Positions 10,276-30,326 of a stretch of 42,855 bases of DNA are shown here, piece after piece. The stretch is from Oscillospiraceae bacterium. GTDB lineage: Bacteria > Bacillota > Clostridia > Oscillospirales > Acutalibacteraceae. The notes beneath the pieces were generated by a model. It was not told the origin of the DNA, ran no database searches, and was given only the letters and a program-made list of their open reading frames with translations. A program made the translations under genes and the position numbers. Location of the stretch: assembly GCA_015066205.1 (NCBI GenBank), contig SVOV01000020.1, positions 1 to 42,855 of the forward strand, given 5' to 3'. Positions within the stretch are counted from its first letter, which is position 1, and the number at the start of each line of letters is the position of its first letter.

Positions 10276-11682
10276 ATGAATAAAAGACCAAATGTTTTAT
10301 TTATCGTGACGGACGATCAGCGATGGGATACCATACACGCTCTCGGAAATGATGAAATTATCACGCCGAATCTTGACCGTCTTACATATGAGGGCTGTGC
10401 CTTTACCGGGGCTCATATTGCAGGGGGCACCTGCGGAGCGGTGTGTATGCCCAGCCGTGCTATGATTCTGTCGGGAAGAAATCCCTTTCATCTTGAGGAG
10501 CTTGGCGGGAATATCCCTCCCGAGCATAAAACGATGCCCGAGACCTTTAAGAATAACGGCTATGAGACTATAGGTCTCGGAAAATGGCATAACGGATGCC
10601 CCGCATATGCCAGAAGCTTTACTCAGGGTGAGAAGATATTCTTCGGCGGTATGTGGGATCATTGGAATGTGCCGACATCAAGGTTTGACCCCACGGGAGC
10701 TTATGACAATGTCATTAATTTCGTTGTGGATTTCTATAAGGACAACCACCCTCAGGAGGTTCACTGTGACGAGTTTTCACCGGGCAAGCATTCGAGCACA
10801 CTTCTTACGGACAGTGCCATTGAGATGCTGAGAAAGAATGCGGGCGGGGACAAGCCCTTTTTTATGTATTTAGCCTATCTTGCGCCTCACGATCCGAGGA
10901 CAATGCCCGATGAATTCAGAAAAATGTATGACCCCGAAAAGATCAAGCTTCCGCCCAATTTCAGAAAGACCATCGAAACAAATTATCCCCTTATGGTGCA
11001 CCGTGACGAGCATCTTGCGGCGTATCCGAGAGATGAAAAGGAGATAAAACGCCATATTGCGGAGTATTTCGCAATGATAACCCATCTTGATTTTGAAATA
11101 GGACGGCTTCTTGATGCCCTTGACGAAACAGGCGAAAGGGACAACACGATTATCGTATTCACGGGGGACAACGGTCTTGCAACGGGTCAGCACGGGTGGC
11201 TGGGCAAGGAGGATATTTATGAACACTCAGTGAGAGTTCCGCTTATTATGTCAGGCCCCGGAATTGCAAAAAATGTGAGAAACGAGGCTTTCGTTTACCT
11301 CTTTGATATTTTCCCCACGCTATGTGAAAAAATCGGAATAGAAATTCCCGATTCCGTTGACGGAAGAAGCTTCTTGCCGCTTCTTGACGGCTGTCACGGC
11401 GAAAATTTCCGGGATGATCTCTATCTCATATTCGACGAATTTGTAAGAGGCGTGAAGGACGGCCAATATAAACTCATAGAATACCGCAACGGCGACAAAA
11501 AGGAGGATGCCTGGACCTTTCTTTATGACCTGAAAAACGACCCTTGGGAAACCGAAAACCTCGCAGAAAAAGAGGAGTATAAAGAAACACTAAAGCAATA
11601 CCGCCAAGCGATCCTGACCCACCGCGACTCATGGGAAGAACAAAAACACCCCTGGGGCAAGGTTTTCTGGGAGAGGTTCTGA
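10276..11682 (+). CDS. Type I (formylglycine) sulfatase, 468 aa
   Basis: The N-terminus 'NVLFIVTDDQRWD' carries the metal-binding Asp pair (D13, D14). The signature C57-M-P59-S60-R61 is the Cys-type motif whose Cys is oxidised to formylglycine, in anaerobes by the radical SAM enzyme anSME (not in this window). 'FTGDNGLATGQHG' supplies later calcium ligands. The enzyme removes sulfate esters from a glycan or small organic sulfate; there is no signal peptide, so it acts in the cytoplasm. ATG 10276 is preferred to the frame opening at 10183, because the promoter and ribosome site lie between them. The last ~45 codons recur at 13437 and 14336, which marks recombination in this region. Confidence 0.9.
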   Translation: MNKRPNVLFIVTDDQRWDTIHALGNDEIITPNLDRLTYEGCAFTGAHIAGGTCGAVCMPSRAMILSGRNPFHLEELGGNIPPEHKTMPETFKNNGYETIGLGKWHNGCPAYARSFTQGEKIFFGGMWDHWNVPTSRFDPTGAYDNVINFVVDFYKDNHPQEVHCDEFSPGKHSSTLLTDSAIEMLRKNAGGDKPFFMYLAYLAPHDPRTMPDEFRKMYDPEKIKLPPNFRKTIETNYPLMVHRDEHLAAYPRDEKEIKRHIAEYFAMITHLDFEIGRLLDALDETGERDNTIIVFTGDNGLATGQHGWLGKEDIYEHSVRVPLIMSGPGIAKNVRNEAFVYLFDIFPTLCEKIGIEIPDSVDGRSFLPLLDGCHGENFRDDLYLIFDEFVRGVKDGQYKLIEYRNGDKKEDAWTFLYDLKNDPWETENLAEKEEYKETLKQYRQAILTHRDSWEEQKHPWGKVFWERF

Positions 11683-13406: not shown

Positions 13407-13436
13407 CAACAGAATTTGCAGTTTCGGAATTACTCT

Positions 13437-13574
13437 ATGAAAACCGAAAACCTCGCAGAAAAAGAAGAGTATAAAGAAACACTAAAGCAATACCGCCAAG
13501 CGATCCTGACCCACCGCGATTCATGGGAAGAACAAAATCACCCCTGGGGAAAGGTATTTTGGGAGAGGTTCTGA
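13437..13574 (+). pseudogene. Sulfatase C-terminal fragment (copy 2)
   Basis: An intact 45-codon frame, from ATG 13437 to TGA, encodes nearly the same tail as the sulfatase. Of seven differences seen against copy 1 in the shared part, six are synonymous and one changes Lys to Asn. It has no ribosome site, so it is probably not translated. The synonymous bias says it came from a functional, diverged sulfatase allele and not from a recent copy of the intact gene. Confidence 0.85.
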
Positions 13575-14212: not shown

Positions 14213-14533
14213 ATGATGCGTGGGTTTGTTACTTTGGCTACCGGGAATGTAAAGTATTATAATATGGCTCTTAATATGTTGAATTCTTTCAGAATTCATA
14301 ATCCCGATGTGCCTTTTGCTATTGTTTGCGACAGAGAAAACGACCCCTGGGAAACCGAAAACCTCGCAGAAAAAGAGAAATATAAAGAAACAGTAAAGCA
14401 ATACCGCCAAGCGATCCTAACCCACCGCGACACCTGGGAAGAACAAAAACACCCCTGGGGCAAGGTTTTTTGGGGAGAGGTTTTGAAGTGTTTATTTTTA
14501 GTTATTAACTCCCAATATTTTGTGAGTAGTTAA
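14213..14533 (+). pseudogene. Chimeric ORF: glycosyltransferase N-terminus fused to sulfatase tail
   Basis: Residues 1-42 ('RGFVTLATGNVKYYNMALNM' and 'PFAIVCDREN') match the start of a nucleotide-sugar transferase with the first Rossmann strand and the CDR motif. At codon ~42 the sequence switches in frame to the sulfatase tail (NDPWETENLAEKE...). The junction falls in a short shared GAAAAC run near 14336-14342. An extra G near 14470 shifts the last codons and extends the frame past the normal sulfatase stop. Ribosome site AGGTGA and a -10-like TATGAT are present, so it may be transcribed, but no active enzyme is expected. Confidence 0.8.
14336..14487 (+). repeat. Sulfatase 3'-end repeat, copy 3
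   Basis: This is the third direct copy of the sulfatase 3' end, with conservative amino-acid changes (E to K, L to V, S to T) against copy 1 and one inserted G. It is the downstream half of the chimeric ORF. Confidence 0.9.
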
Positions 14534-15764: not shown

Positions 15765-15833
15765 ATATTTTGAAATATTATGTTGTAATTAATATATATT
15801 TATATATTTCTGTAGTGTAATATGAGGTGTCTG

Positions 15834-17339
15834 ATGAAGAGTGTTATAGAATATCTTGAGTTGTCAGAAAAGAGTTTCCCCGATAAAACAGCGGTTGTTG
15901 ATGAGCATAAGAAGCTTACATATTCTGAACTGGCGGATTATAGCAGACGCGTAGGCGGAAGACTTGTAGGTCATATAAAAAAATCTGAGCCGGTTGCAGT
16001 TTATATGGAAAAATCTGCTGAAACGCTTTGTGCTTTCTTCGGTATAGTTTATGCCGGAGGTTGTTATTCACTATTGAATACAGAGCTGCCCGAAGGAAGA
16101 ATAAGAAGCATAATTGAGGTTCTGTCACCCAATGTTATTATAACGAGTGAAGAGTTGTATCCCCGGGCTTTATGTTTGTTTAAGGGGAAAGTAATCTTAA
16201 GGATTGACGAATTGATGACGGCACCGTTGCCTGACAGCCTTTACTGCAGAAGATTTGATGTTGATCCGTTATATATTAATTTTACTTCCGGCTCGACCGG
16301 TGTGCCTAAAGGAATCGTTGTAGGCAACCGAAGTGTGTTGGATTTTATTGATTGTTTTACAGATACATTTTCAATTTGTTCTGATGATATTATTGCAAAT
16401 CAGGCACCTTTTGATTTTGATGTTTCAGTTAAAGATATATATTCTGCATTAAAGGTCGGGGCAACACTTGTTATAGTTCCCCGACGGATGTTTACTGCTC
16501 CCGTTGAGCTTGTTGAGTTTTTGGTTGAACATAATGTTACAACTATGATATGGGCAGTTTCTGCTCTTTGTCTTCTCAGCACTTTTCACGCGTTTGATTA
16601 TAAAACTCCTTCCACAATTAACAAGATACTTTTCAGCGGTGAGGTTATGCCTTTAAAACATCTGAATACTTTCAGAAAGCATTTACCTGAAGCAATGTTT
16701 GTAAATCTGTATGGACCGACGGAAATAACCTGTAATTGTACATATCATATTCTTGATAAAAATGTCGATTATGCGGACGGAATACCTATTGGAATTCCTT
16801 TTGAAAATGAGGATGTTTTTTTGTTGGATGAAAGTGATAAAAGAATAGAAGCTGTTGATTGTACCGGAGAAATCTGTGTGCGCGGAACAGCTCTTGCATT
16901 GGGCTATTATTCCGCACCCGAGCAGAATAAGAAGAGCTTTGTGCAGAATCCTCTCAATCCCCGATATCCGGAAATTATTTATCGTACAGGTGATCTCGGC
17001 AAATTTAACAAAGACGGAGAATTAGTATTCTGCGGCAGAAAGGATTTCCAGATAAAATATCTCGGACATCGAATTGAGCTTGAGGAAATAGAACGCGCAA
17101 TTGCTGCTATTGACGGTGTTGAGCGTTGCTGTTGTATTTTTGATGAAAAACGGTCAAGACTTAAGGGATTTTATATGGGTGAAATTGACAAAGAAGAGCT
17201 TAATTCTGTTATGAAAAAAACATTTCCTTCATTTATGATCCCCGGAGTTATAAAAAAGGTTGATAATATGCCGTTAACCAAAAACGGAAAAATCGACAGA
17301 AAGGCATTGGCCGAAATATCCGGAGGAAGCAAAGCATGA
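15834..17339 (+). CDS. DltA-like AMP-forming amino-acid:carrier-protein ligase, 501 aa
   Basis: This is an ANL-superfamily adenylating enzyme with all core motifs: P-loop 'FTSGSTGVPKG' (near 155), 'NQAPFDFDVSVKDIY' (the Asp that holds the substrate amino group in DltA and NRPS A-domains), 'NLYGPTEITC', 'YRTGDLG' and C-terminal 'KNGKIDRKAL' with the catalytic Lys. Closest in layout to DltA, which charges D-alanine onto DltC. At residue 268 it has Ser (ILFSGEV) where Bacillus DltA has Cys (FLFCGEV), a residue that contacts the D-Ala side chain, so the substrate may differ. ATG 15834 has GAGGTGTCTG before it. It is the first gene of a tight operon and overlaps the decarboxylase by 4 bp (ATGA). 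Confidence 0.9.
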   Translation: MKSVIEYLELSEKSFPDKTAVVDEHKKLTYSELADYSRRVGGRLVGHIKKSEPVAVYMEKSAETLCAFFGIVYAGGCYSLLNTELPEGRIRSIIEVLSPNVIITSEELYPRALCLFKGKVILRIDELMTAPLPDSLYCRRFDVDPLYINFTSGSTGVPKGIVVGNRSVLDFIDCFTDTFSICSDDIIANQAPFDFDVSVKDIYSALKVGATLVIVPRRMFTAPVELVEFLVEHNVTTMIWAVSALCLLSTFHAFDYKTPSTINKILFSGEVMPLKHLNTFRKHLPEAMFVNLYGPTEITCNCTYHILDKNVDYADGIPIGIPFENEDVFLLDESDKRIEAVDCTGEICVRGTALALGYYSAPEQNKKSFVQNPLNPRYPEIIYRTGDLGKFNKDGELVFCGRKDFQIKYLGHRIELEEIERAIAAIDGVERCCCIFDEKRSRLKGFYMGEIDKEELNSVMKKTFPSFMIPGVIKKVDNMPLTKNGKIDRKALAEISGGSKA

Positions 17340-18505
17340 ACAATAAAGAAAAACTGCCGATAGGAAATAAGGCTTTTTATGTTTTTGATATACCTGAGTT
17401 AAAGAATCGCATAACTTATATCAGAAGCTTTTTTCCTGATTTTGTTGATCTTTGCTATGCTGTTAAGGCAAACACCTTTATTGTTAAGGAAATGATAGAC
17501 AGTATTGGAAAGTTTGAGATTTGTTCACCCGGGGAATACTATATTTGCGAAAAACTGAATGTTCCGTTGTCCCGAATGGTTATTTCAGGGGTATACAAAA
17601 CTCCCTCTTTTCTGGAATATTTATTTTTCCAGACCGAAACATCCTGTGTTTTGACAGTTGAATCAATGCTCCAGCTTTCGTTGATCAAAGAATTATCCGA
17701 AAAGACAGAAAAACAGGTTCGGATTTTATTGAGGCTGACAAACGGAAGTCAGTTCGGAATAAATGCAGCCGAAATAAAAAGTATTATATCAGAAAAAGAA
17801 AAGCTTCCTTTACTTGATATTATCGGAATTCAGTTTTTTTCCGGCACACAGAAGACATCGGTTAAAAAGATTAAGAGGGAACTTGAGAAGATTGATAATC
17901 TTATTAGTGAACTCAAAGAGGAATACGGTTTTTCTGTACAGGAGCTGGAATACGGAACGGGCTTTCCTGTTACATATTTTGACTGCGAGGATTTTGATGA
18001 AGAAGCTTTGTTCCGTGATGTTGCTGAAATGTTCTGCGGAATGCAGAATAAGACAAGAATTGTAATTGAGCTTGGGCGAAGCATTGCGGCTTCCTGCGGA
18101 AAATACTATACTCCGGTTGTTGATATGAAAACCAATAAAGATATGAACTATCTGCTTGTTGATGGCGGAATGCATCATATTTCTTATTTCGGACAATATA
18201 TGGCAATGAAGCAACCGTTTGTTTCAGTTGTCGGAAAAGAAAATGAAGAAGCGGTCAAATCATGGAATATCTGTGGTTCACTATGCTCTATGAATGACAT
18301 TCTTGTAAAAAATGCCGCTCTTCCTGAAATCGGACTGCTTGATTATCTTTGTTTTGAAAGAACAGGTGCATATTGTGCAACAGAAGGAATATCACTGTTT
18401 TTATCAAGAGATCTGCCCTTGATTTATGTCCTTGATGAAAACGGAAACTATATTTGCTTAAGAGAATCTTACGAAACAATGGCATTGAATATGCCAGAAT
18501 ATTGA
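17336..18505 (+). CDS. PLP-dependent fold-III decarboxylase (DAP/ornithine decarboxylase-like), 389 aa
   Basis: The N-terminal TIM barrel has the PLP-lysine motif 'YAVKAN' (K44). Further barrel motifs are 'YGTGFPV' (phosphate-binding Gly stretch) and 'IELGRSIAA' (normally EPGR). The C-terminal beta domain has 'C313-GSLCSMND' with C317 at the place of the active-site Cys of the G-P-x-C-x-S-x-D motif, and 'RTGAYCATEG' at the usual GAY position. It is therefore a decarboxylase-type enzyme and not an alanine racemase. Known relatives make lysine, putrescine or carboxynorspermidine; BtrK acts on a carrier-bound glutamyl group. Placement between ligase and carrier protein, with ATGA overlap, suggests it prepares or modifies the group to be transferred. 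Substrate unknown. Confidence 0.88.
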   Translation: MNNKEKLPIGNKAFYVFDIPELKNRITYIRSFFPDFVDLCYAVKANTFIVKEMIDSIGKFEICSPGEYYICEKLNVPLSRMVISGVYKTPSFLEYLFFQTETSCVLTVESMLQLSLIKELSEKTEKQVRILLRLTNGSQFGINAAEIKSIISEKEKLPLLDIIGIQFFSGTQKTSVKKIKRELEKIDNLISELKEEYGFSVQELEYGTGFPVTYFDCEDFDEEALFRDVAEMFCGMQNKTRIVIELGRSIAASCGKYYTPVVDMKTNKDMNYLLVDGGMHHISYFGQYMAMKQPFVSVVGKENEEAVKSWNICGSLCSMNDILVKNAALPEIGLLDYLCFERTGAYCATEGISLFLSRDLPLIYVLDENGNYICLRESYETMALNMPEY

Positions 18506-18518
18506 TAGGAGAATTATT

Positions 18519-18749
18519 ATGGAAAAATTATACGAAATTTTAAGAGAAATCAATGATGAAATTGATTATGAAACCTGCACTGATCTTATTGACGGACATC
18601 AGCTGGAATCTCTGGCTATTCTTGCTCTTATTGCAGATCTTGAGGATGAATTTGATATAACGATTCCTGCCACTGAGATTATTCCCGAAAACTTTAATTC
18701 TGCTTCTGCAATGTATTCGATGATTACCCGTTTGCAGGAGGATGAATGA
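18519..18749 (+). CDS. DltC-like acyl carrier protein, 76 aa
   Basis: This is a small acidic four-helix protein. The phosphopantetheine attachment Ser is S31 in 'GHQLESLAIL', at the start of helix 2 as in DltC/ACP, with Glu instead of the commoner Asp before it. 'LEDEFDITIPATEI' is the usual helix 2-loop stretch. It should carry the acyl group loaded by the ligase at 15834 and present it to the MBOAT protein. It follows the decarboxylase by 13 bp (AGGAGAATTATT ribosome site) and overlaps the MBOAT gene by 4 bp. Confidence 0.9.
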   Translation: MEKLYEILREINDEIDYETCTDLIDGHQLESLAILALIADLEDEFDITIPATEIIPENFNSASAMYSMITRLQEDE

Positions 18750-20386
18750 TCTTGGAGCTTTTTGCTGAAATTATTCAGGACAGTGCAGTGAAGCTGACTT
18801 CGTTTTTTTCTTTTGAATATCTTGTCATTTTCCTGCCTGTTGTAATTATTTTATATGCATTATCACCGGGAAAGGCAAAGAAATATATTCTGCTTCTGTT
18901 CAGTTATGTTTTTTATGTGATTGTTAATGGAGGCTTGACTCTGTTTTTATTGTTTTCTACGGTTTGTGTTTTTGCTTTTTCAAAATTGCTTGAATCAATT
19001 AAGAGCAAAAGGGCAGAAGCTTTGAAATCCTGTGAGAAGGATAAGAAAAAAGAGATTAAAGCAGAATATCAGAAAAGAATGCGAAGTGTTTTGGTATTTG
19101 CCATAATTATTCATATAGGCATTCTGGTTGTTCTTAAGTATTCGGGTTTTTTTGCATATAATATCAATTCGATATTGAGTTTATGTAAGATTGAATTCAG
19201 TTTTATTATACCTGATTTTGCTTTACCGCTCGGTATATCATTTTTTTCATTACAGGCGGTTTCTTATCTTACAGATGTATACAGAGGAACAGAGAAGGCT
19301 GATAGCAACTTTTTCAGAGTTGCTTTGTTTCTCGGCTTTTTTCCTCAGATTATTGAAGGGCCGATATGCAGATATTCACAGACTGCACAGCAGCTCTGGG
19401 ATGTAAAGCAGATTGAATTTGAGAATTTGACAAAAGGTCTTCAGCGTGTGCTTTACGGCATGATGAAGAAAGTGGTTATTGCAGACAGACTCAATCCCTT
19501 TATTCAGTCTGTTTTCAGTGATCATAAGGAATACGGCGGAATTATGGTTATTGCTGCCGCAGTATTTTATTCCGTTCAGTTATATATGGATTTTTCCGGT
19601 GCTATGGATGCAGTTTGCGGTATCGGTCAGATATTCGGTGTTGTTATGCCGGAGAACTTCAAAAGACCGTTTTTCTCAAAGAGTATTTCGGAATTCTGGA
19701 CAAGATGGCATATTTCTCTCGGTACATGGTTCAAGGATTATATATTCTATCCTGTTTCAATGTCAAAAAGAATGAAAACTGTTACTTCTGCAGCCCGCAA
19801 AAAAATAGGCAGTTACTACGGTCCTTTGGTTGCCGGAAGCATAGCATTGTTTTGTGTTTGGCTTAACAACGGTTTGTGGCACGGTTCAGCATGGAGCTAT
19901 ATATTCTTCGGAATGTATCATTTTGCGTTAATTCTTTTAGGCAATATCACAGCTCCCTTATCAAAAAAAGTATTACATAAATTAAGGATTTCTTCTGAAA
20001 ACAAAGTCTATCTGTTATTCAGAATTGCCCGAACATGTGGTTTGGTTGTTATCGGTGAATTATTTTTCAGGGCGGACGGACTGAAAAAGGGTCTTTCGAT
20101 GTTTTTCAGTATATTCACAGATTTCAGATTGCCGGAAATGACAGATGGTTTTTTAGGTGATTTCAGATTAAGCTTTTTTGACCTGGGTATAGTTTTTGTT
20201 GTACTTGCTGTTATTCTGGTGATAAGTATTCTTAATGAAAAGGGATATATTATCAGAGATCTTTTGCAAGAAAAGAATGTTGTTGTAAGATGGACTGCAA
20301 TTATTGCTATGATCGTTGTAATTATAGTCTTTGGTGCATATGGTGACGGATATGTACCGGTCGATCCTATATACGCAAATTTTTAG
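18746..20386 (+). CDS. DltB/AlgI-like MBOAT O-acyltransferase, 546 aa
   Basis: This is a multi-pass membrane protein of the MBOAT family, with the AlgI/DltB motifs 'FFPQIIEGPICRY', 'FWTRWHISLGTWFKDYIFYP', and the catalytic His H379 in 'LWHGSAW' with a second His H392 in 'GMYHF'. These enzymes move an acyl group across the membrane and onto an extracytoplasmic polymer. An insertion near residues 75-110 is highly charged (KSKRAEALKSCEKDKKKEIK) and lies between helices, probably cytoplasmic. At 546 residues it is longer than DltB (about 400) and nearer to AlgI (about 520). The start overlaps the carrier-protein stop, so its expression is coupled. Confidence 0.92.
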   Translation: MILELFAEIIQDSAVKLTSFFSFEYLVIFLPVVIILYALSPGKAKKYILLLFSYVFYVIVNGGLTLFLLFSTVCVFAFSKLLESIKSKRAEALKSCEKDKKKEIKAEYQKRMRSVLVFAIIIHIGILVVLKYSGFFAYNINSILSLCKIEFSFIIPDFALPLGISFFSLQAVSYLTDVYRGTEKADSNFFRVALFLGFFPQIIEGPICRYSQTAQQLWDVKQIEFENLTKGLQRVLYGMMKKVVIADRLNPFIQSVFSDHKEYGGIMVIAAAVFYSVQLYMDFSGAMDAVCGIGQIFGVVMPENFKRPFFSKSISEFWTRWHISLGTWFKDYIFYPVSMSKRMKTVTSAARKKIGSYYGPLVAGSIALFCVWLNNGLWHGSAWSYIFFGMYHFALILLGNITAPLSKKVLHKLRISSENKVYLLFRIARTCGLVVIGELFFRADGLKKGLSMFFSIFTDFRLPEMTDGFLGDFRLSFFDLGIVFVVLAVILVISILNEKGYIIRDLLQEKNVVVRWTAIIAMIVVIIVFGAYGDGYVPVDPIYANF

Positions 20387-20398
20387 GAGACAGAATAA

Positions 20399-21367
20399 AT
20401 GAAAATAAGATTAAAATACCTTTTTTCATCGTTGTTTTTTATAACAATAACTTTTGTTATTTTGGGATTTCTTACGGCAATAGTTGTTCCGAAAACAAAC
20501 AAAAAGGAATCCGGGTTTTATCATGCATCAGCGTATGCGATCTGTAATGAGCCTGAAAACTCGATTGATATGCTTTTCCTCGGCACAAGTCAGGTGTACA
20601 GCACCTTTATACCGTTGCAGATCTGGAATCAGATAGGTATAACATCGTATGCCTGTTCAACTCCGAGTCAGGGCTTGTATTATACAGAGGAGCTTTTAAT
20701 CAAAGCATTAAAAACTCAGTCTCCTGAATTGGTTGTTCTGGAAACGGACGCAGTTTTTGAGAATTTTTCTATGAATTCTGTTTTAGAGCATAAACTGTTT
20801 AATGCTGTTCCGTTGTTGAGATATCACAGCAGATGGAAATCTCTTACAGCTGATGATTTTTCGTTTAATTATGATTTTTCGTTTTCACATGAAGGAAAAG
20901 GCTTTGTGTGTGATTTCAGGTGTGAGCCGGTCAGAAATGAGAATTATATGATAAAGACTGATGATGTGAAAGCCATTTCTGAAAAATCAATAGAGTATCT
21001 GGAACGCATAATTAAGATTTGTAATGACAGGGATATTGATATTCTTTTCATCAGCGCACCGTCTGCATTGAACTGGGACTATACCCATTATAACGCAATA
21101 TGCGAATTATCTGAAAAATACAATATTGAATATGTTGATATGAATATGTATATTGATGAAATCGGCATTGATTGGCAGAAGGACTCTATTGATGCGGGAA
21201 AGCATCTTAATTTTTTCGGTGCATATAAAGCAACCGGTTGGTTTGCAGACTATATAAGTAAATCAGGTTATGTATTTGAAGTAAAGGACGATGAAACTGT
21301 CAGCAACTGGGATTCTGCCGTGGTTGATTATAATAAAACACTTACAGAGCATAATGCAGAGATTTGA
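20399..21367 (+). CDS. DltD-like SGNH-fold membrane-anchored protein, 322 aa
   Basis: An N-terminal signal anchor (about residues 9-28) leads to an extracytoplasmic domain. It has an SGNH-type nucleophile block 'MLFLGTSQVYS' (S64) and a late 'D265-AGKH269-LN' that could supply the Asp/His pair. DltD and AlgX/AlgJ proteins with this fold complete or hydrolyse the acyl transfer begun by the MBOAT protein. It is the last gene of the operon, 12 bp after the MBOAT gene, and is followed by a terminator. At 322 residues it is shorter than DltD (about 400). Assignment rests on fold motifs and position. Confidence 0.82.
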   Translation: MKIRLKYLFSSLFFITITFVILGFLTAIVVPKTNKKESGFYHASAYAICNEPENSIDMLFLGTSQVYSTFIPLQIWNQIGITSYACSTPSQGLYYTEELLIKALKTQSPELVVLETDAVFENFSMNSVLEHKLFNAVPLLRYHSRWKSLTADDFSFNYDFSFSHEGKGFVCDFRCEPVRNENYMIKTDDVKAISEKSIEYLERIIKICNDRDIDILFISAPSALNWDYTHYNAICELSEKYNIEYVDMNMYIDEIGIDWQKDSIDAGKHLNFFGAYKATGWFADYISKSGYVFEVKDDETVSNWDSAVVDYNKTLTEHNAEI

Positions 21368-24505: not shown

Positions 24506-24544
24506 TAATATCTATTATTATATCTGTTTTAAGGGGTGGTGCAA

Positions 24545-26467
24545 ATGACAAAAAAACGGCTTTATTTTTTTCAGGTAAACTATCCCTACGGTAAGTCTGC
24601 ACATCTGCCTTATACTGCGGGACAGCTATTGGCTTATGCCTTCAGTGATGAGGATATAAAGACAAGCTTTTCAGCCGAGCGTATATTCTTTCTCAGAGAA
24701 AAAATACCTGATGTTCTTGAAAGAATCGATGAACCTGCAGTTGTTGCTTTTTCCTCTTATATATGGAATTACAATTATAATCTTCAGCTTGCAGAGAAAA
24801 TAAAGAGCCTTTACCCCGATTGTATTATCATCTTCGGCGGACACCATGTTTCCCCGGGGGACAGGATGCTTGAAGAATATCCCTTTGTCGATTATCTCTT
24901 ACACGGTGAGGGAGAAATTATTTTCAGACGCCTTTTAAGAAGCGTGCTGGGTCTTGAAAAAGCAGAGGATATTCCCGGTATTTCAATGAGAACCGAAAAG
25001 GGGATAATCACAAATCCCGAAATGATATCCTCGGAATGTAATTTTCCGTCGCCCTATCTTGAGGGATATTTTGATAAGATAATTGAAGAAAACCCCGATA
25101 TTGAATTTATGGGACTGATCGAAACCTCAAGAGGCTGTCCCAATTCCTGTGCATATTGCGACTGGAGCAATATGAAATCAAAAATAAGAAAATTTCCCAT
25201 GGAGCGTATTCTCGGCGAAATTGAATGGATGAGCAAGAACAGAATATGTGTTTTAGGCTCAGCCGATTCAAATTTCGGACTGTTTGAGAGAGATGAGGAA
25301 ATAACCGATAAAATAGTTGAAGAGAAGCTAAAAACGGGACATCCCTTAAGATTTCAGACCTCTTATGCAAAAAACAGCACAAAAAGGGTCTTTGATATCG
25401 GAATGAAGCTTGAAAGGGCTGATATGAACCGCGGTATTACTCTTTCTTTTCAGTCAATGAACAAGGCCGTGCTTAAGAATATCGGAAGAGAAAACATCAG
25501 CACAGAATACTATTCCGAGCTTATGCGCCTTTATAATGAAGCGGGAGTTGCCACCTATACGGAGCTTATCTTAGGTCTTCCCGGTGAAACCTATGAATCT
25601 CTCACTGACGGTATGGACGAGCTTCTTTCTCTCGGTCAGCATAATTCGATTTATATACATAACTGCGAATGGCTTCCCTGTTCAATTATGGGAAGACCGG
25701 ACTTCGTTGAAAAATACGGCATCAGAACGGCAAGAATTCCTCTTAATCAGCCCCACCGTGAGCCTGATGAGGACGATAATATCACGGAATACTCACAGGT
25801 CGTTATTTCAACCCTTTCAATGACGGCGGAGGAATGGAAAAAAATGAACCTCTTTTCATATGCGGTTCAGGCTTTTCATCATATGGGGCTTCTGCAGTTC
25901 TTTGCGCTTTATCTTTATAACGAAAAGATCTGCTCCTATAAAACCTTTTATACCTCGCTTCTCGATTTTTTCCTTTCTCATAAAAACACCGTCGGAGGAA
26001 GAATCTTCAGTAAAATTGATGAATATCTCAATGATGTTATTGAGGAAAAGGGAACTCTCAGCTGCTGTGATGAGTTGTTTGGTAAGGTACAATGGCCCTT
26101 TGAGGAATATGCATTTCTCAGGACTGTTTATGAGCTTGACGGGTTTTATGAGGAAATATCCGTTTTTCTTAAACGATTTGGTATAAGAGAGGATATTTTT
26201 GATGCCTTGCTTGATTTTCAGAAGAGAATGATAAAAACGCCGAAGGAAAGCACAGAAGGCTTTGAAACTGATTTTGATTTCCCGCAGTATTTCAATGCCG
26301 TGCTGAATTCGTACAGTGCTGTTCTTAATAAAGAAAAAACATCCGTAAGAATCAAGCCTGTTTCCTTTTCAGACTGGGAGGAATATGCAAAGGTCATAGC
26401 CTGGTACGGAAGAAAGAACGGAATTGCAACACATATGAAGGATTTCAGTTTCGGTGCGGGGAGATAG
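24545..26467 (+). CDS. B12-binding-domain radical SAM protein, paralogue 1 (640 aa)
   Basis: Residues ~1-140 are a cobalamin-binding-type Rossmann domain ('VAFSSYIWNYNYNLQLAEKI' and 'IIFGGHHVSPGDRMLEE', 'LLHGEGE') without the DxHxxG motif. Residues ~190-420 form the radical SAM barrel with C198-x3-C202-x2-C205 (CPNSCAYC) binding the 4Fe-4S cluster, and 'LILGLPGETYES' late in the barrel. About 220 C-terminal residues form an aromatic-rich helical domain shared by all three paralogues. Family members are often C-methyltransferases or rearrangement enzymes; the substrate here is unknown. ATG 24545 is chosen because GTG 24536 lies inside the ribosome site. First of four genes, ending 2 bp before the next. 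Confidence 0.9.
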   Translation: MTKKRLYFFQVNYPYGKSAHLPYTAGQLLAYAFSDEDIKTSFSAERIFFLREKIPDVLERIDEPAVVAFSSYIWNYNYNLQLAEKIKSLYPDCIIIFGGHHVSPGDRMLEEYPFVDYLLHGEGEIIFRRLLRSVLGLEKAEDIPGISMRTEKGIITNPEMISSECNFPSPYLEGYFDKIIEENPDIEFMGLIETSRGCPNSCAYCDWSNMKSKIRKFPMERILGEIEWMSKNRICVLGSADSNFGLFERDEEITDKIVEEKLKTGHPLRFQTSYAKNSTKRVFDIGMKLERADMNRGITLSFQSMNKAVLKNIGRENISTEYYSELMRLYNEAGVATYTELILGLPGETYESLTDGMDELLSLGQHNSIYIHNCEWLPCSIMGRPDFVEKYGIRTARIPLNQPHREPDEDDNITEYSQVVISTLSMTAEEWKKMNLFSYAVQAFHHMGLLQFFALYLYNEKICSYKTFYTSLLDFFLSHKNTVGGRIFSKIDEYLNDVIEEKGTLSCCDELFGKVQWPFEEYAFLRTVYELDGFYEEISVFLKRFGIREDIFDALLDFQKRMIKTPKESTEGFETDFDFPQYFNAVLNSYSAVLNKEKTSVRIKPVSFSDWEEYAKVIAWYGRKNGIATHMKDFSFGAGR

Positions 26468-26469
26468 AA

Positions 26470-28404
26470 ATGAAAAAGAAAAATGTTTATTTTGTGCAGG
26501 TGGATGTTTCCGCTTCTGCAAGCTCGCAGAATGCATACCTGCCTTATACGGCCGGAATACTTGTTGCTTCCGCTTTTACGAGTGAAGCAGTAAGAGAAAA
26601 CTGCAGCTTTAAGGAGTTTATTTTCCTCAGAGAGGATCCCGATACGGTAACCGAAAGACTGGAGGAGCCTGCTTTTGTCGGTTTTTCCTGTTATTGCTGG
26701 AGTACTCAGTATAATAAGCTTCTCGCAAGTAAGATCAAAGAGAAATACCCCTCCTGCCTTATAGTTTTCGGCGGACATGATGTTCCCGATGACCCTCAGT
26801 TTCTTGAGGAGAATCCCTTTATAGATGTTTTGTGTCACGGGGAAGGGGAGGAGACCGTAAGAAGTCTTCTCGAAAATTATGTGACAGACACCGGCTTTTC
26901 CTCGGTGTGTAATATTTCTTACAGGGATGGCAGCGGGAATATTATCAGAACAAAGAGCCGTCCTCAGACCTGTCTTGACTATCCCTCTCCTTATCTTGAG
27001 GGGTGGTTTGACGGCATATTGGCTTCACATCCCGAAATTACCTTTAATGCCATTCTTGAAACCTCGAGAGGCTGTCCCAATCAGTGCGCCTACTGCGACT
27101 GGGGGCCTCTTAAAACAAGGACCCGTCTGTTCCCCATGGACAGAATAAAGGCTGAAATAAGATGGATGTGTGAGCATAAGATTGCCTTTGTGTGGGGTGC
27201 TGATGCCAATTTCGGAATTTATGACCGTGACCTTGAAATTGCCGATGAGTTGGTAAAGGCAAAAAAGGAAACGGGATATCCCGAAAGAATGAGAATGAAC
27301 TATGCAAAAAACAGGGCTGATAATGTATTTGCCATAGTTAAAAAATTCAAAGAGTGTGAATTTGACAGGATCGGGGCGACCCTTTCTTTCCAGAGTATGT
27401 CCGAAGAGGTTCAGAAGAACATCGGCAGATCAAATCTTGATCTCGATTTTTATAAGGAGCTTCTTCTCTCTTATAAGAAAGAGGGAATGAGAACCTATTC
27501 CGAGCTTATTTTAGGTCTTCCCGGTGAGACCTATGAGAGCTTTATTGCGGGTATCGCAAAGCTTTTTGAAATAGGTCAGCATTTTGTTTTTGAAATATAT
27601 AACTGTATTCTTCTTCCGAATTCCCTGATGGGGCAGAAGGCTTATCAGGAAAAGCACGGAATAAAAACCGTGAATGTTGAAATTATCCGCGCACACTTTA
27701 ATGATACTTCCTTCAGTGTGCCCGAATATAATAATATCATCGTGGAAACTGATACCATGAGCCGTGAAATGTGGGTGCGTGCTTCTGTTTTCGGACATCT
27801 CGCAAAGGCTTTTCACGGAAACGGTCTTATAAGGATATTCTCCTTGTATCTGCGCTATGCTATGGATATTCCCTTTGACCGCTTCTATGATGAGGCTATA
27901 ACTTATCTTGAAAATAATCCTCAGCTTTTTACTTCGGGACTTTATATGAAAATAAAAGAAAAGGCAGAAAAGCTGTCACGGGGTATTCAGAATGAGAAGC
28001 TATTATTTGAACCTACCGGTGGTATAGTATGGGAGGATCACGAGTATTTTGTTCTGAATTCACTTTCTGATACAGACCGTTTTTATGATGATATGATGCC
28101 GTTTCTTAAATTCTTCGGTATAGCGGATGATATTTTCTCTGATATTCTTACCTATCAGAGGGCTGTGCTCAGAAAACCCTTTGAAAGCGAGACTGAGATC
28201 AGGCTTTCTTATGATATCCATTCATTCGTATCGGATATATATCTTAATAATATGCACGGTCTTGAAAAGAGAGATAATACTCTTATTCTTAAGGACAGTA
28301 AGCCTCATAATAATTGGCAGGATTTTTCCAAATTCGTAATCTGGTATGAAAGAATCGGTTGGGCTTCATATAAAGATGATATAAAAGAAAAAAAGGAAGG
28401 ATAA
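26470..28404 (+). CDS. B12-binding-domain radical SAM protein, paralogue 2 (644 aa)
   Basis: Same architecture as its neighbours: B12-type Rossmann domain ('FVGFSCYCWSTQYNKLLA', 'IVFGGHDVP', 'CHGEGE'), radical SAM barrel with C202-x3-C206-x2-C209 (CPNQCAYC, then DW), 'LILGLPGETYES', and the shared C-terminal domain ending 'NNWQDFSKFVIWYERIG'. It has extra cysteines in the B12 domain (SCYCW). It begins 2 bp after paralogue 1 and ends 2 bp before paralogue 3, so the three must be made together. Divergence among them is large (clearly different residues throughout), which argues for an old duplication with separate roles. Confidence 0.9.
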   Translation: MKKKNVYFVQVDVSASASSQNAYLPYTAGILVASAFTSEAVRENCSFKEFIFLREDPDTVTERLEEPAFVGFSCYCWSTQYNKLLASKIKEKYPSCLIVFGGHDVPDDPQFLEENPFIDVLCHGEGEETVRSLLENYVTDTGFSSVCNISYRDGSGNIIRTKSRPQTCLDYPSPYLEGWFDGILASHPEITFNAILETSRGCPNQCAYCDWGPLKTRTRLFPMDRIKAEIRWMCEHKIAFVWGADANFGIYDRDLEIADELVKAKKETGYPERMRMNYAKNRADNVFAIVKKFKECEFDRIGATLSFQSMSEEVQKNIGRSNLDLDFYKELLLSYKKEGMRTYSELILGLPGETYESFIAGIAKLFEIGQHFVFEIYNCILLPNSLMGQKAYQEKHGIKTVNVEIIRAHFNDTSFSVPEYNNIIVETDTMSREMWVRASVFGHLAKAFHGNGLIRIFSLYLRYAMDIPFDRFYDEAITYLENNPQLFTSGLYMKIKEKAEKLSRGIQNEKLLFEPTGGIVWEDHEYFVLNSLSDTDRFYDDMMPFLKFFGIADDIFSDILTYQRAVLRKPFESETEIRLSYDIHSFVSDIYLNNMHGLEKRDNTLILKDSKPHNNWQDFSKFVIWYERIGWASYKDDIKEKKEG

Positions 28405-28406
28405 GA

Positions 28407-30326
28407 ATGAAAAAGAATGTATATTTTGTTCAGATAGCATTGTCTTATTCATCTCCCTGCTTTCTGCCTTATTCCATCGGCTGTATTGCCGCTTATGTTA
28501 TGAGGGATGAGGAAATAACAAAGGCTTATGACATAAAGCCCGTGATCGGGATGAGAGAAAGCATTCCCGAAATAATGAAGCGCTTCACTGATCCCGATTA
28601 TGTTGCTTTTACAAATTTTGTATGGAATCTCGAATATAACAAGGCTCTTGCAAAAGAGCTTAAAAAGAAATATCCCGATGTTAAAATCATTTTCGGAGGA
28701 CACAGTGTTCCCTCGGATGCATCCTTTCTCGATAAATATGAATTTATTGATTTTCTTATGCATAATGAGGGTGAAGAAACAACAGCGATGCTTCTGAAGG
28801 CTCTCGCCTCGGGAGGCCCGCTGAAAGAGGTTCCGAATCTCTCATACAGAACAAAGGACGGCAATGTGACAACAGAGGAATACCATCCTCAGGACATATC
28901 CTCTTATCCCTCTCCCTATACCGAGGGGCTGTTTGACCATTTCTTCAGTGAATTCCCCGATGTGGAGTTTCACGCAACCCTTGAAACAAACCGCGGCTGT
29001 CCTTATACCTGCTCATACTGCGAATGGTGCTTTACGAAGAAAATAAGAAAGTTTCCGATGGAAAAGATAAAGGCAGAGATACGCTGGCTTTCGGAGAAAA
29101 AAATCAGGTACTGCTATTGTGCGGATGCCAATTTCGGTATTTTTGAAAGAGATATTGGAATTGCACGGTATGTAGCCGAGTGCAGTAAAAAGTACGGCTA
29201 CCCCGAGGTCTTCAAGCCCTGTTATGCAAAGGACAGCGATGATACCGTATTTGAGGCGGGGTATATTCTCAACAGCAACCATATAGATAAGGGCGTTACT
29301 CTCGCATATCAGACCCTTGATGAAAAAGCACTGGAAAATATCGGAAGAAAGAACCTTACCCTTGAGCATTTTTCAAGCCTTTATTCACGATACAGCGAAG
29401 CGGGAATTCCTACTTATACCGAGCTTATTATCGGTCTGCCCGGAGAAACATACGAAAGCTTCTGTAAGGGAATGTGCAATCTTCTTGAATCGGGGCAGAG
29501 CAATTCCATGACGGTCTATGAATGTCAGGTCTATGACAATGCTCAGATGGGCGACCCCGCATACAGAGAAAAATTCGGCATAAAGACCTCAAAAATTCCA
29601 TCCTTCGGAATTCACTATAACCCCGATTTCAACGGAGTCAGGGAGTATATGGAGGTTATAACGGAAACCTCGGATATGCCGAAAGCGGACTGGGTCAGGG
29701 CATATATGTTCTCGGTAGTGCTTCAGACCTTCCATCATCTGGGGCTTCTTCGGTATTTTGCTGTCTATATGAACAGGGAAAGGTCCCTGTCCTTTTATGA
29801 TTTCTACAGCCGTCTTTTTGATTTTATTTATTCGGAGCGTCAGGGCTTTCTTCATACTCTTTTCAAGGAGCTTTATAACAGAAAGCTTGATACCGAAAAA
29901 GCGGACTGGACTTATCAGCGAGATATTTTCGGCACAACCGGCTGGTATTTTGAAGAGGGCGCTTTTCTGGAGCTTGTTCTCAATTTCGATGAATACAAAG
30001 AGAACATAAGACCGTTTCTTGATTCTCTCGGAATTGAAAAGGATATTTATGAGGAGCTTCTCGTGTTCCAGCATTCTCTTATAAGAAGGCTTGATACCGA
30101 AGAGGTAACAATAAACAGCAGCTATAATTTCTACAGATATTTCAAGGCTTATGATGATAAGAGGTTTACTGCACTTGAAAAAACCGAAAATACTCTTCAT
30201 ATCAGGGCTCATAAAACCGTAAGCTCCTGGAGGGATTATGCAAGAGAATTTGTATGGTTCGGAAAGAGATACAGTGCCACTCTTATGATAAATCCCAGAG
30301 ATATTATAACCTATACTGAATATTAA
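28407..30326 (+). CDS. B12-binding-domain radical SAM protein, paralogue 3 (639 aa)
   Basis: Third copy: B12-type domain ('VAFTNFVWNLEYNKALAKEL', 'IIFGGHSVPSD', 'MHNEGEE' where the others have HGEGE), radical SAM cluster C198-x3-C202-x2-C205 (CPYTCSYC, then EW in place of DW), 'LIIGLPGETYES', and the shared C-terminal domain ending 'SWRDYAREFVWFGKRY'. The change of DW to EW and HGEGE to HNEGEE marks it as the most diverged copy. It ends 8 bp before the GT2 gene. Role unknown. Confidence 0.9.
   Translation: MKKNVYFVQIALSYSSPCFLPYSIGCIAAYVMRDEEITKAYDIKPVIGMRESIPEIMKRFTDPDYVAFTNFVWNLEYNKALAKELKKKYPDVKIIFGGHSVPSDASFLDKYEFIDFLMHNEGEETTAMLLKALASGGPLKEVPNLSYRTKDGNVTTEEYHPQDISSYPSPYTEGLFDHFFSEFPDVEFHATLETNRGCPYTCSYCEWCFTKKIRKFPMEKIKAEIRWLSEKKIRYCYCADANFGIFERDIGIARYVAECSKKYGYPEVFKPCYAKDSDDTVFEAGYILNSNHIDKGVTLAYQTLDEKALENIGRKNLTLEHFSSLYSRYSEAGIPTYTELIIGLPGETYESFCKGMCNLLESGQSNSMTVYECQVYDNAQMGDPAYREKFGIKTSKIPSFGIHYNPDFNGVREYMEVITETSDMPKADWVRAYMFSVVLQTFHHLGLLRYFAVYMNRERSLSFYDFYSRLFDFIYSERQGFLHTLFKELYNRKLDTEKADWTYQRDIFGTTGWYFEEGAFLELVLNFDEYKENIRPFLDSLGIEKDIYEELLVFQHSLIRRLDTEEVTINSSYNFYRYFKAYDDKRFTALEKTENTLHIRAHKTVSSWRDYAREFVWFGKRYSATLMINPRDIITYTEY

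Follow-up and report, generated by a model that had tools for sequence, protein, structure and literature searches.

A conserved five-gene Dlt-like operon with a fold-III decarboxylase in gut Clostridia, a candidate system for decorating a surface polymer with amine-bearing acyl groups

A stretch of 42,855 nucleotides from an Oscillospiraceae bacterium (GenBank assembly GCA_015066205.1, contig SVOV01000020.1, positions 1 to 42,855; GTDB family Acutalibacteraceae), hereafter called the window, was analysed for an operon on its forward strand which a first-pass annotation had described as a tight, Dlt-like set of five genes carrying a pyridoxal 5'-phosphate (PLP)-dependent decarboxylase. Indeed, five intact genes are encoded in the order announced: (i) an amino-acid adenylating ligase (A; 15834..17339; 501 aa, pocket code DVKWLSLCNK) resembling DltA and the adenylation domains of nonribosomal peptide synthetases (NRPS), (ii) a fold-III PLP decarboxylase (K; 17336..18505; 389 aa), (iii) a stand-alone carrier protein (C; 18519..18749; 76 aa) with the phosphopantetheine serine Ser31 (18609-18611), (iv) an MBOAT acyltransferase (B; 18746..20386; 546 aa) with His379 (19880-19882) and a C-terminal extension closed by the hexapeptide PIYANF (20366..20383), an acyl-shuttle motif whose Tyr543 is the presumed acyl acceptor, and (v) an SGNH acyltransferase (D; 20399..21367; 322 aa) with Ser64 (20588-20590) and His269 (21203-21205). 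The two 4-bp ATGA overlaps already noticed lie between A and K (17336-17339) and between C and B (18746-18749), the remaining intergenic gaps being 13 bp (K-C) and 12 bp (B-D). The open frame of A begins at 15822, and a GAGGTG is found just 5' of the start at 15834. Pfam cut-offs were passed for AMP-binding (A), PF02784 and PF00278 (K), PP-binding (C) and MBOAT (B).

The gene set was compared across 105 loci, namely the window, 24 loci from genomes of the same family and the best 80 of at least 584 pattern-bearing stretches coding for a K relative of some kind (tblastn against a named genome collection, E up to 1e-3); nine of the 105 loci repeat another. All five families occur in one run at 97 of the 105 loci, which rules out a chance neighbourhood, and the eight incomplete loci (six with A-K only, two with A-K-C-B only) are all cut by contig ends. 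The check proposed at first pass, whether the decarboxylase is conserved with the other four genes in relatives, was thereby made, and the decarboxylase is a constant part of this Dlt-like loading and export machine. The gene order is A-C-K-B-D at 4 of the 105 loci, A-K-B-D-C-B-D, with a second B-D pair, at 4 others (of which L133 repeats L039), D-A-K-C-B at one, and A-K-C-B-D with minor extras at the rest; the MBOAT of L135 is read as two frames. Two MBOAT-SGNH pairs per single ligase-decarboxylase-carrier set, as in L038, L039 and L042, suggest two acceptors. Ser31 of C and His379 of B, both singled out at first pass, are at the places given there; all 91 readable rows have the serine and all 95 the histidine. 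Here and below, residue counts cover the readable rows of module proteins, window included. The full set is present in records titled Ruminococcus bromii (L066, L068), Catenibacillus scindens, Acetobacterium wieringae and Pseudoflavonifractor and, outside the Clostridia, Collinsella ihumii. Of 300 genomes from the family of the window, 25, its own included, encode a homologue of K (E up to 1e-20), and at the same threshold none was found in the three other genomes of the window's genus in this sample. The five genes thus form a conserved module, patchily spread among genomes, widespread and found in many gut Clostridia.

K carries the PLP lysine (K44; 17465-17467) and the catalytic-loop cysteine (Cys317; 18284-18286). 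This cysteine is kept in 95 of 95 readable K proteins and is said in PMC7857480 to be conserved in all PLP decarboxylases of the alanine racemase (AR) fold. Ser318 occupies the site of the LysA glutamate that binds the distal amine of diaminopimelate (DAP); all 95 readable K proteins have Thr or Ser at this site, and the Arg-containing distal motif of the DAP site is absent from the 24 K sequences aligned (residue roles from PMC8277567; residues matched to K by an alignment made here). With 155 bits against the 297.9-bit cut-off of TIGR01048 (lysA), and with a true LysA encoded elsewhere in the genome (417.5 bits), K could be ruled out as the LysA of lysine biosynthesis. The comparison with BtrK drawn at first pass is borne out, since BtrK is the best match of the K family profile among 44 solved sequences. 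In the tree, the nearest relatives of K are exosortase-type decarboxylases encoded beside a ligase and a carrier, although K remains below the cut-off of TIGR03099, its sister in the tree (159.9 versus 478.45 bits). Five of the six outside relatives that are not LysA (L145, L147, L148, L149, L150) have ligase and carrier matches or annotations nearby, the K frame of L148 itself also matching the carrier profile, and the sixth (L146) has a carrier gene nearby and no ligase match. One of them lies in a Streptomyces plasmid cluster (L147:5932-10842) encoding a carrier-type PLP decarboxylase, a holo-ACP (acyl carrier protein) synthase, a ligase, a carrier, an ectoine synthase and ectA; a carrier-bound route to an ectoine-like unit is possible there.

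The ten NRPS specificity positions of the ligases were read from core motifs and were readable in 95 of the 96 non-redundant module ligases. Lys200 of A (codon 16431-16433) falls at position 239 in the PheA numbering, and the reading of this position was also guided by the NRPS glutamate code DAKDLGVVDK. Position 239 is Lys or Arg in 95 of 95 readable module ligases, and such a predicted cationic pocket suits a substrate with a second carboxylate. The codes are of DVKW type in 91 ligases and of IARW type in four (IARWCSQASK and IARWISQASK); this minor clade has Ile at position 235, and the major clade, window included, retains Asp there, as do beta-amino-acid ligases according to PMC11284099. 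Retention of Asp235 together with Lys239 would fit aspartate as the substrate in the major clade, and the minor clade may take another acid. Among the substrates listed at first pass, aspartate and glutamate therefore appear to fit better, and lysine, ornithine and DAP are disfavoured because K is without an acidic residue at the distal-amine site and without one Arg of the DAP site, and because the pocket of A is cationic.

Among solved sequences, the B profile matches only DltB (2 distinct sequences, E up to 0.001), over positions 134-428; past this region, two hydrophobic segments (469-503 and 509-539) precede PIYANF. The tail is readable in 94 of 96 B proteins and has Tyr543 in all 94, the final residue being Phe in 91 and Tyr in three; one of the 96 B proteins with a closed 3' end finishes in LSIITF and not in the motif. 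D matches no Pfam or NCBIfam family, and its profile gave weak matches to unrelated proteins among solved sequences (best E 0.021). The possibility that D is not an SGNH protein was nevertheless overturned by structure prediction, carried out for D and K, which gave an SGNH fold for D (pLDDT 90.2) with an N-terminal helix (residues 2-29), presumed to be a membrane anchor. Ser64 and His269 are conserved, and the pair has the features of MBOAT-SGNH shuttle systems, that is, a conserved His and a C-terminal Tyr in the MBOAT and an SGNH-fold partner with catalytic Ser and His. In PMC12148441, NgPatA carries FIYANF, PatA of Campylobacter jejuni acetylates the Tyr of the shuttle motif and NgPatB uses an acetylated FIYANF peptide; the same text attributes a carrier and a separate DltX to Dlt, and no carrier to other MBOAT-SGNH pathways. 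Judged by its sequence, the module of the window combines a carrier with a fused shuttle. No match to A, K, C or D was found near the two other MBOATs of this genome.

The module resembles the Dlt system (DltA-DltX-DltB-DltC-DltD) in having a ligase, a small carrier, an MBOAT and an SGNH protein in one operon, in the restriction of B to DltB among solved structures and in the good scores of A against DltA models. It differs in the extra decarboxylase, in the pocket code of A (versus DLMSLCTVAK, the D-Ala code read in two dlt-type operons from the window's bacterial family) and in the tail fused to B where Dlt uses a separate DltX. No module protein reaches a Dlt family cut-off (A, 282.9 versus 559.85 bits for TIGR01734; B, 152.3 versus 375 bits for TIGR04091). 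The Dlt-like label given at first pass consequently holds for the loading and export set, whereas a standard dlt operon is not what is encoded. Furthermore, the BtrJ-BtrK-BtrI system of the butirosin side chain has a fold-III decarboxylase whose substrate is an acidic residue attached to a carrier, but its product goes to an aminoglycoside, and BtrJ is, to our knowledge, not an A-domain ligase. The exosortase A-associated pair TIGR03098/TIGR03099 includes the nearest tree relatives of K, and the order ligase-decarboxylase-carrier recurs in a Rhizobium locus and, with glycosyltransferases and with the ligase read in two frames, in a Sinorhizobium meliloti locus; however, MBOAT and SGNH profiles were unmatched in the two exosortase-type loci read, and A is below the TIGR03098 cut-off (202.5 versus 592.35 bits). 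No literature on this ligase-decarboxylase pair was found in open-licence papers.

A close parallel for the loading steps, by description and not by sequence, is the VinN-VinO-VinL or FlvN type. According to PMC11284099, an aspartate-type residue is attached by the ligase to a stand-alone carrier, where a PLP enzyme decarboxylates it: VinN loads 3-methylaspartate, thioester formation is required before VinO decarboxylates, and aspartate is the substrate of FlvN for fluvirucin B2, which starts from beta-alanine. In these macrolactam antibiotics the product primes a polyketide, whereas the next genes of the module encode the MBOAT-SGNH pair. For this pair, PatA-PatB of peptidoglycan O-acetylation offers an MBOAT with a C-terminal FxYxxF shuttle motif and an SGNH partner (PMC12148441), but PatA uses acetyl-CoA and no carrier protein. 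Among the matches listed from open-licence papers, no title or abstract start described a Dlt-like system with a decarboxylase, which does not prove the absence of one. Each chemical part has a precedent, their joining is undescribed in the searchable literature, and the module is a variant of the MBOAT-SGNH/Dlt kind.

It is likely, in our judgement, that the five proteins work as a Dlt-like system for surface acylation to which a decarboxylation on the carrier has been added, aspartate being the most likely substrate and glutamate the alternative. The substrate of A would be an acidic amino acid, L-aspartate most likely, adenylated at the side-chain carboxyl and then loaded on the phosphopantetheine of Ser31 of C; the residue would hang by its side chain because alpha-decarboxylation needs a free alpha-carboxyl. 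K would then remove this carboxyl on the carrier, giving beta-alanyl-S-carrier, or gamma-aminobutyryl (GABA)-S-carrier from glutamate, and CO2. B would carry this acyl group with its amine through the membrane and onto Tyr543 in its own tail, which would present it to Ser64 of D, and D would esterify a hydroxyl of a surface polymer, making the polymer more positive. Two results for K weigh against this proposal: BtrK comes second to a LysA in a single-sequence search, and in the structural ranking of the K model BtrK and LysA are tied and not separable.

A possible variant, to which we give roughly one chance in a few, is that the same machine loads glutamate by its side chain and exports GABA instead of beta-alanine. 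BtrK, the best solved profile match of K, acts on carrier-bound glutamate (PMC7857480), but the Asp235 kept by the major clade suits an amino group near the activated end (compare PMC11284099). The four of 95 ligases without this Asp, which would hold a near amino group, are what a longer substrate would allow, and the clades may differ in their acid.

It is unlikely that K instead acts on a free amino acid, for example turning aspartate into beta-alanine, with A then loading the product. LysA and ODC, the best-known decarboxylases of fold III, normally act on free substrates. However, the pocket cation found in every readable module ligase suits a substrate still bearing its second carboxylate, the outside relatives of K that are not LysA lie beside a carrier and, in five of six cases, a ligase, and VinN takes 3-methylaspartate and not the decarboxylated acid (PMC11284099). 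A substrate such as meso-DAP, lysine or ornithine, giving a lysyl or diamine-derived decoration, is more doubtful still, in view of the Thr or Ser at the distal-amine site, the missing Arg motif, the low lysA score and the direct availability of lysine to the cell, although the residue argument is incomplete, as carrier-bound DAP would not need the Arg for the distal carboxylate. Finally, K as an on-carrier racemase giving a D-residue, as in D-alanylation, is very improbable given the decarboxylase loop Cys and the decarboxylase C-terminal domain PF00278, even if fold III includes racemases and some sister operons, described hereafter, carry a separate Asp/Glu racemase.

The 300 genomes searched for K also yielded 70 ligase matches (E up to 1e-60), 25 in K loci and 45 outside; 33 of these 45 K-free loci were fetched, the other 12, in long NRPS-like frames (1265-5374 aa), being left out. 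A, C, B and D are in order at 25 of the 33, L213 has A-C-B, two are dlt-type, and no export-pair match was found on the ligase strand in L186, L192, L207, L209 and L214. In the K-free related operons, 27 of 28 scored B proteins end in xxYxxF. The 33 pocket codes are SM.W (19), DAKW (7), DVKW (2), DNLW (2), DAPW (1) and DLMSLCTVAK (2). The SM.W code (L185-L213), the commonest among the sisters, has lost the Asp that binds the alpha-amino group; an acyl substrate other than an alpha-amino acid is probable here. The two DLMSLCTVAK loci (L216, L217) resemble canonical dltABCD (508, 385, 80 and 395 aa), with a DltB without tail and a small DltX-like open reading frame (ORF) ending in FVYNNF nearby; they were called dlt-type by order, size and this ORF, not by Dlt model scores, and offer a natural control for the module within the same bacterial family.

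Lys239 is present in 9 of the 33 K-free ligases, versus Lys or Arg in all readable ligases of K operons, so a cation read at this position is not a mark of K. In four of these nine loci (L189, L191, L201, L202; code DAKW), the gene immediately 5' of A encodes an Asp/Glu racemase (phmmer matches in all four loci, PF01177 in both of those scanned); these are candidates for D-aspartyl or D-glutamyl surface decoration. In two others (L187:1528-2367 and L196:6479-7321), a GNAT acetyltransferase occupies the slot of K between A and C, with the code DVKWMSLCNK, which is also found in five decarboxylase operons. No relative of the racemase or of the GNAT was found in the 105 K loci (E up to 1e-5). We read Lys239 as pointing to an acidic amino acid whose fate would be decided by the gene beside the ligase; the three remaining Lys239 loci, in which neither racemase nor GNAT was found, lend this reading no support.

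As regards genomic context, 73 K loci have 3 kb or more of sequence upstream of A; in 30 of these, a response regulator and a histidine kinase are encoded no further than 2.6 kb upstream of A, versus 1 of 28 K-free related loci (Fisher p about 1e-4, relatedness ignored), an association which suggests that the envelope is remodelled under regulation. The window's own copy does not count among these 30. When 646 flanking ORFs from 96 loci were clustered, two-component proteins made up the largest cluster (40 of 96 loci), and no glycosyltransferase or polymer gene proved constant, such as might identify the acceptor. In L127, where two-component genes lie upstream of the module, a phosphopantetheinyl transferase gene (PF01648; 4501-5082) adjoins them and is the sole such match among K loci at threshold. 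The genome of the window (85% complete) gave no match to a CDP-glycerol polymerase domain, and the acceptor may for this reason be other than wall teichoic acid. In the window, a sulfatase, a polysaccharide pyruvyl transferase and a fucosyltransferase-like gene are encoded upstream of the module. A 153-bp stretch from the 3' end of the sulfatase gene (11519-11671) recurs twice further downstream, between surface-sugar genes, at 13411-13563 and 14322-14474 (84% and 90% identity); the copies are read as remnants of duplicated or recombining sulfatase ends. Elsewhere in the window (24536-30326), three tandem radical SAM proteins of 639-644 aa with B12-binding-like domains are encoded.

D-alanylation is the textbook means by which Gram-positive bacteria tune their surface charge and resist cationic peptides. 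If the proposed system is real, it would be a second widespread amine-decoration machine in gut commensals, strains of Ruminococcus bromii included, would explain a surface chemistry overlooked by dltA-based annotation, and would hint at what the orphan ligase-decarboxylase-carrier cassettes of polysaccharide loci do. A broader view, which we hold with even odds, is that gut Clostridia possess diversified Dlt-like surface-acylation operons whose decoration is set jointly by the ligase pocket and by an exchangeable tailoring gene, the latter being a decarboxylase (beta-alanyl or GABA), an Asp/Glu racemase (D-aspartyl or D-glutamyl), a GNAT (N-acylated) or none; if so, the surface aminoacylation code would be much broader than D-alanine.

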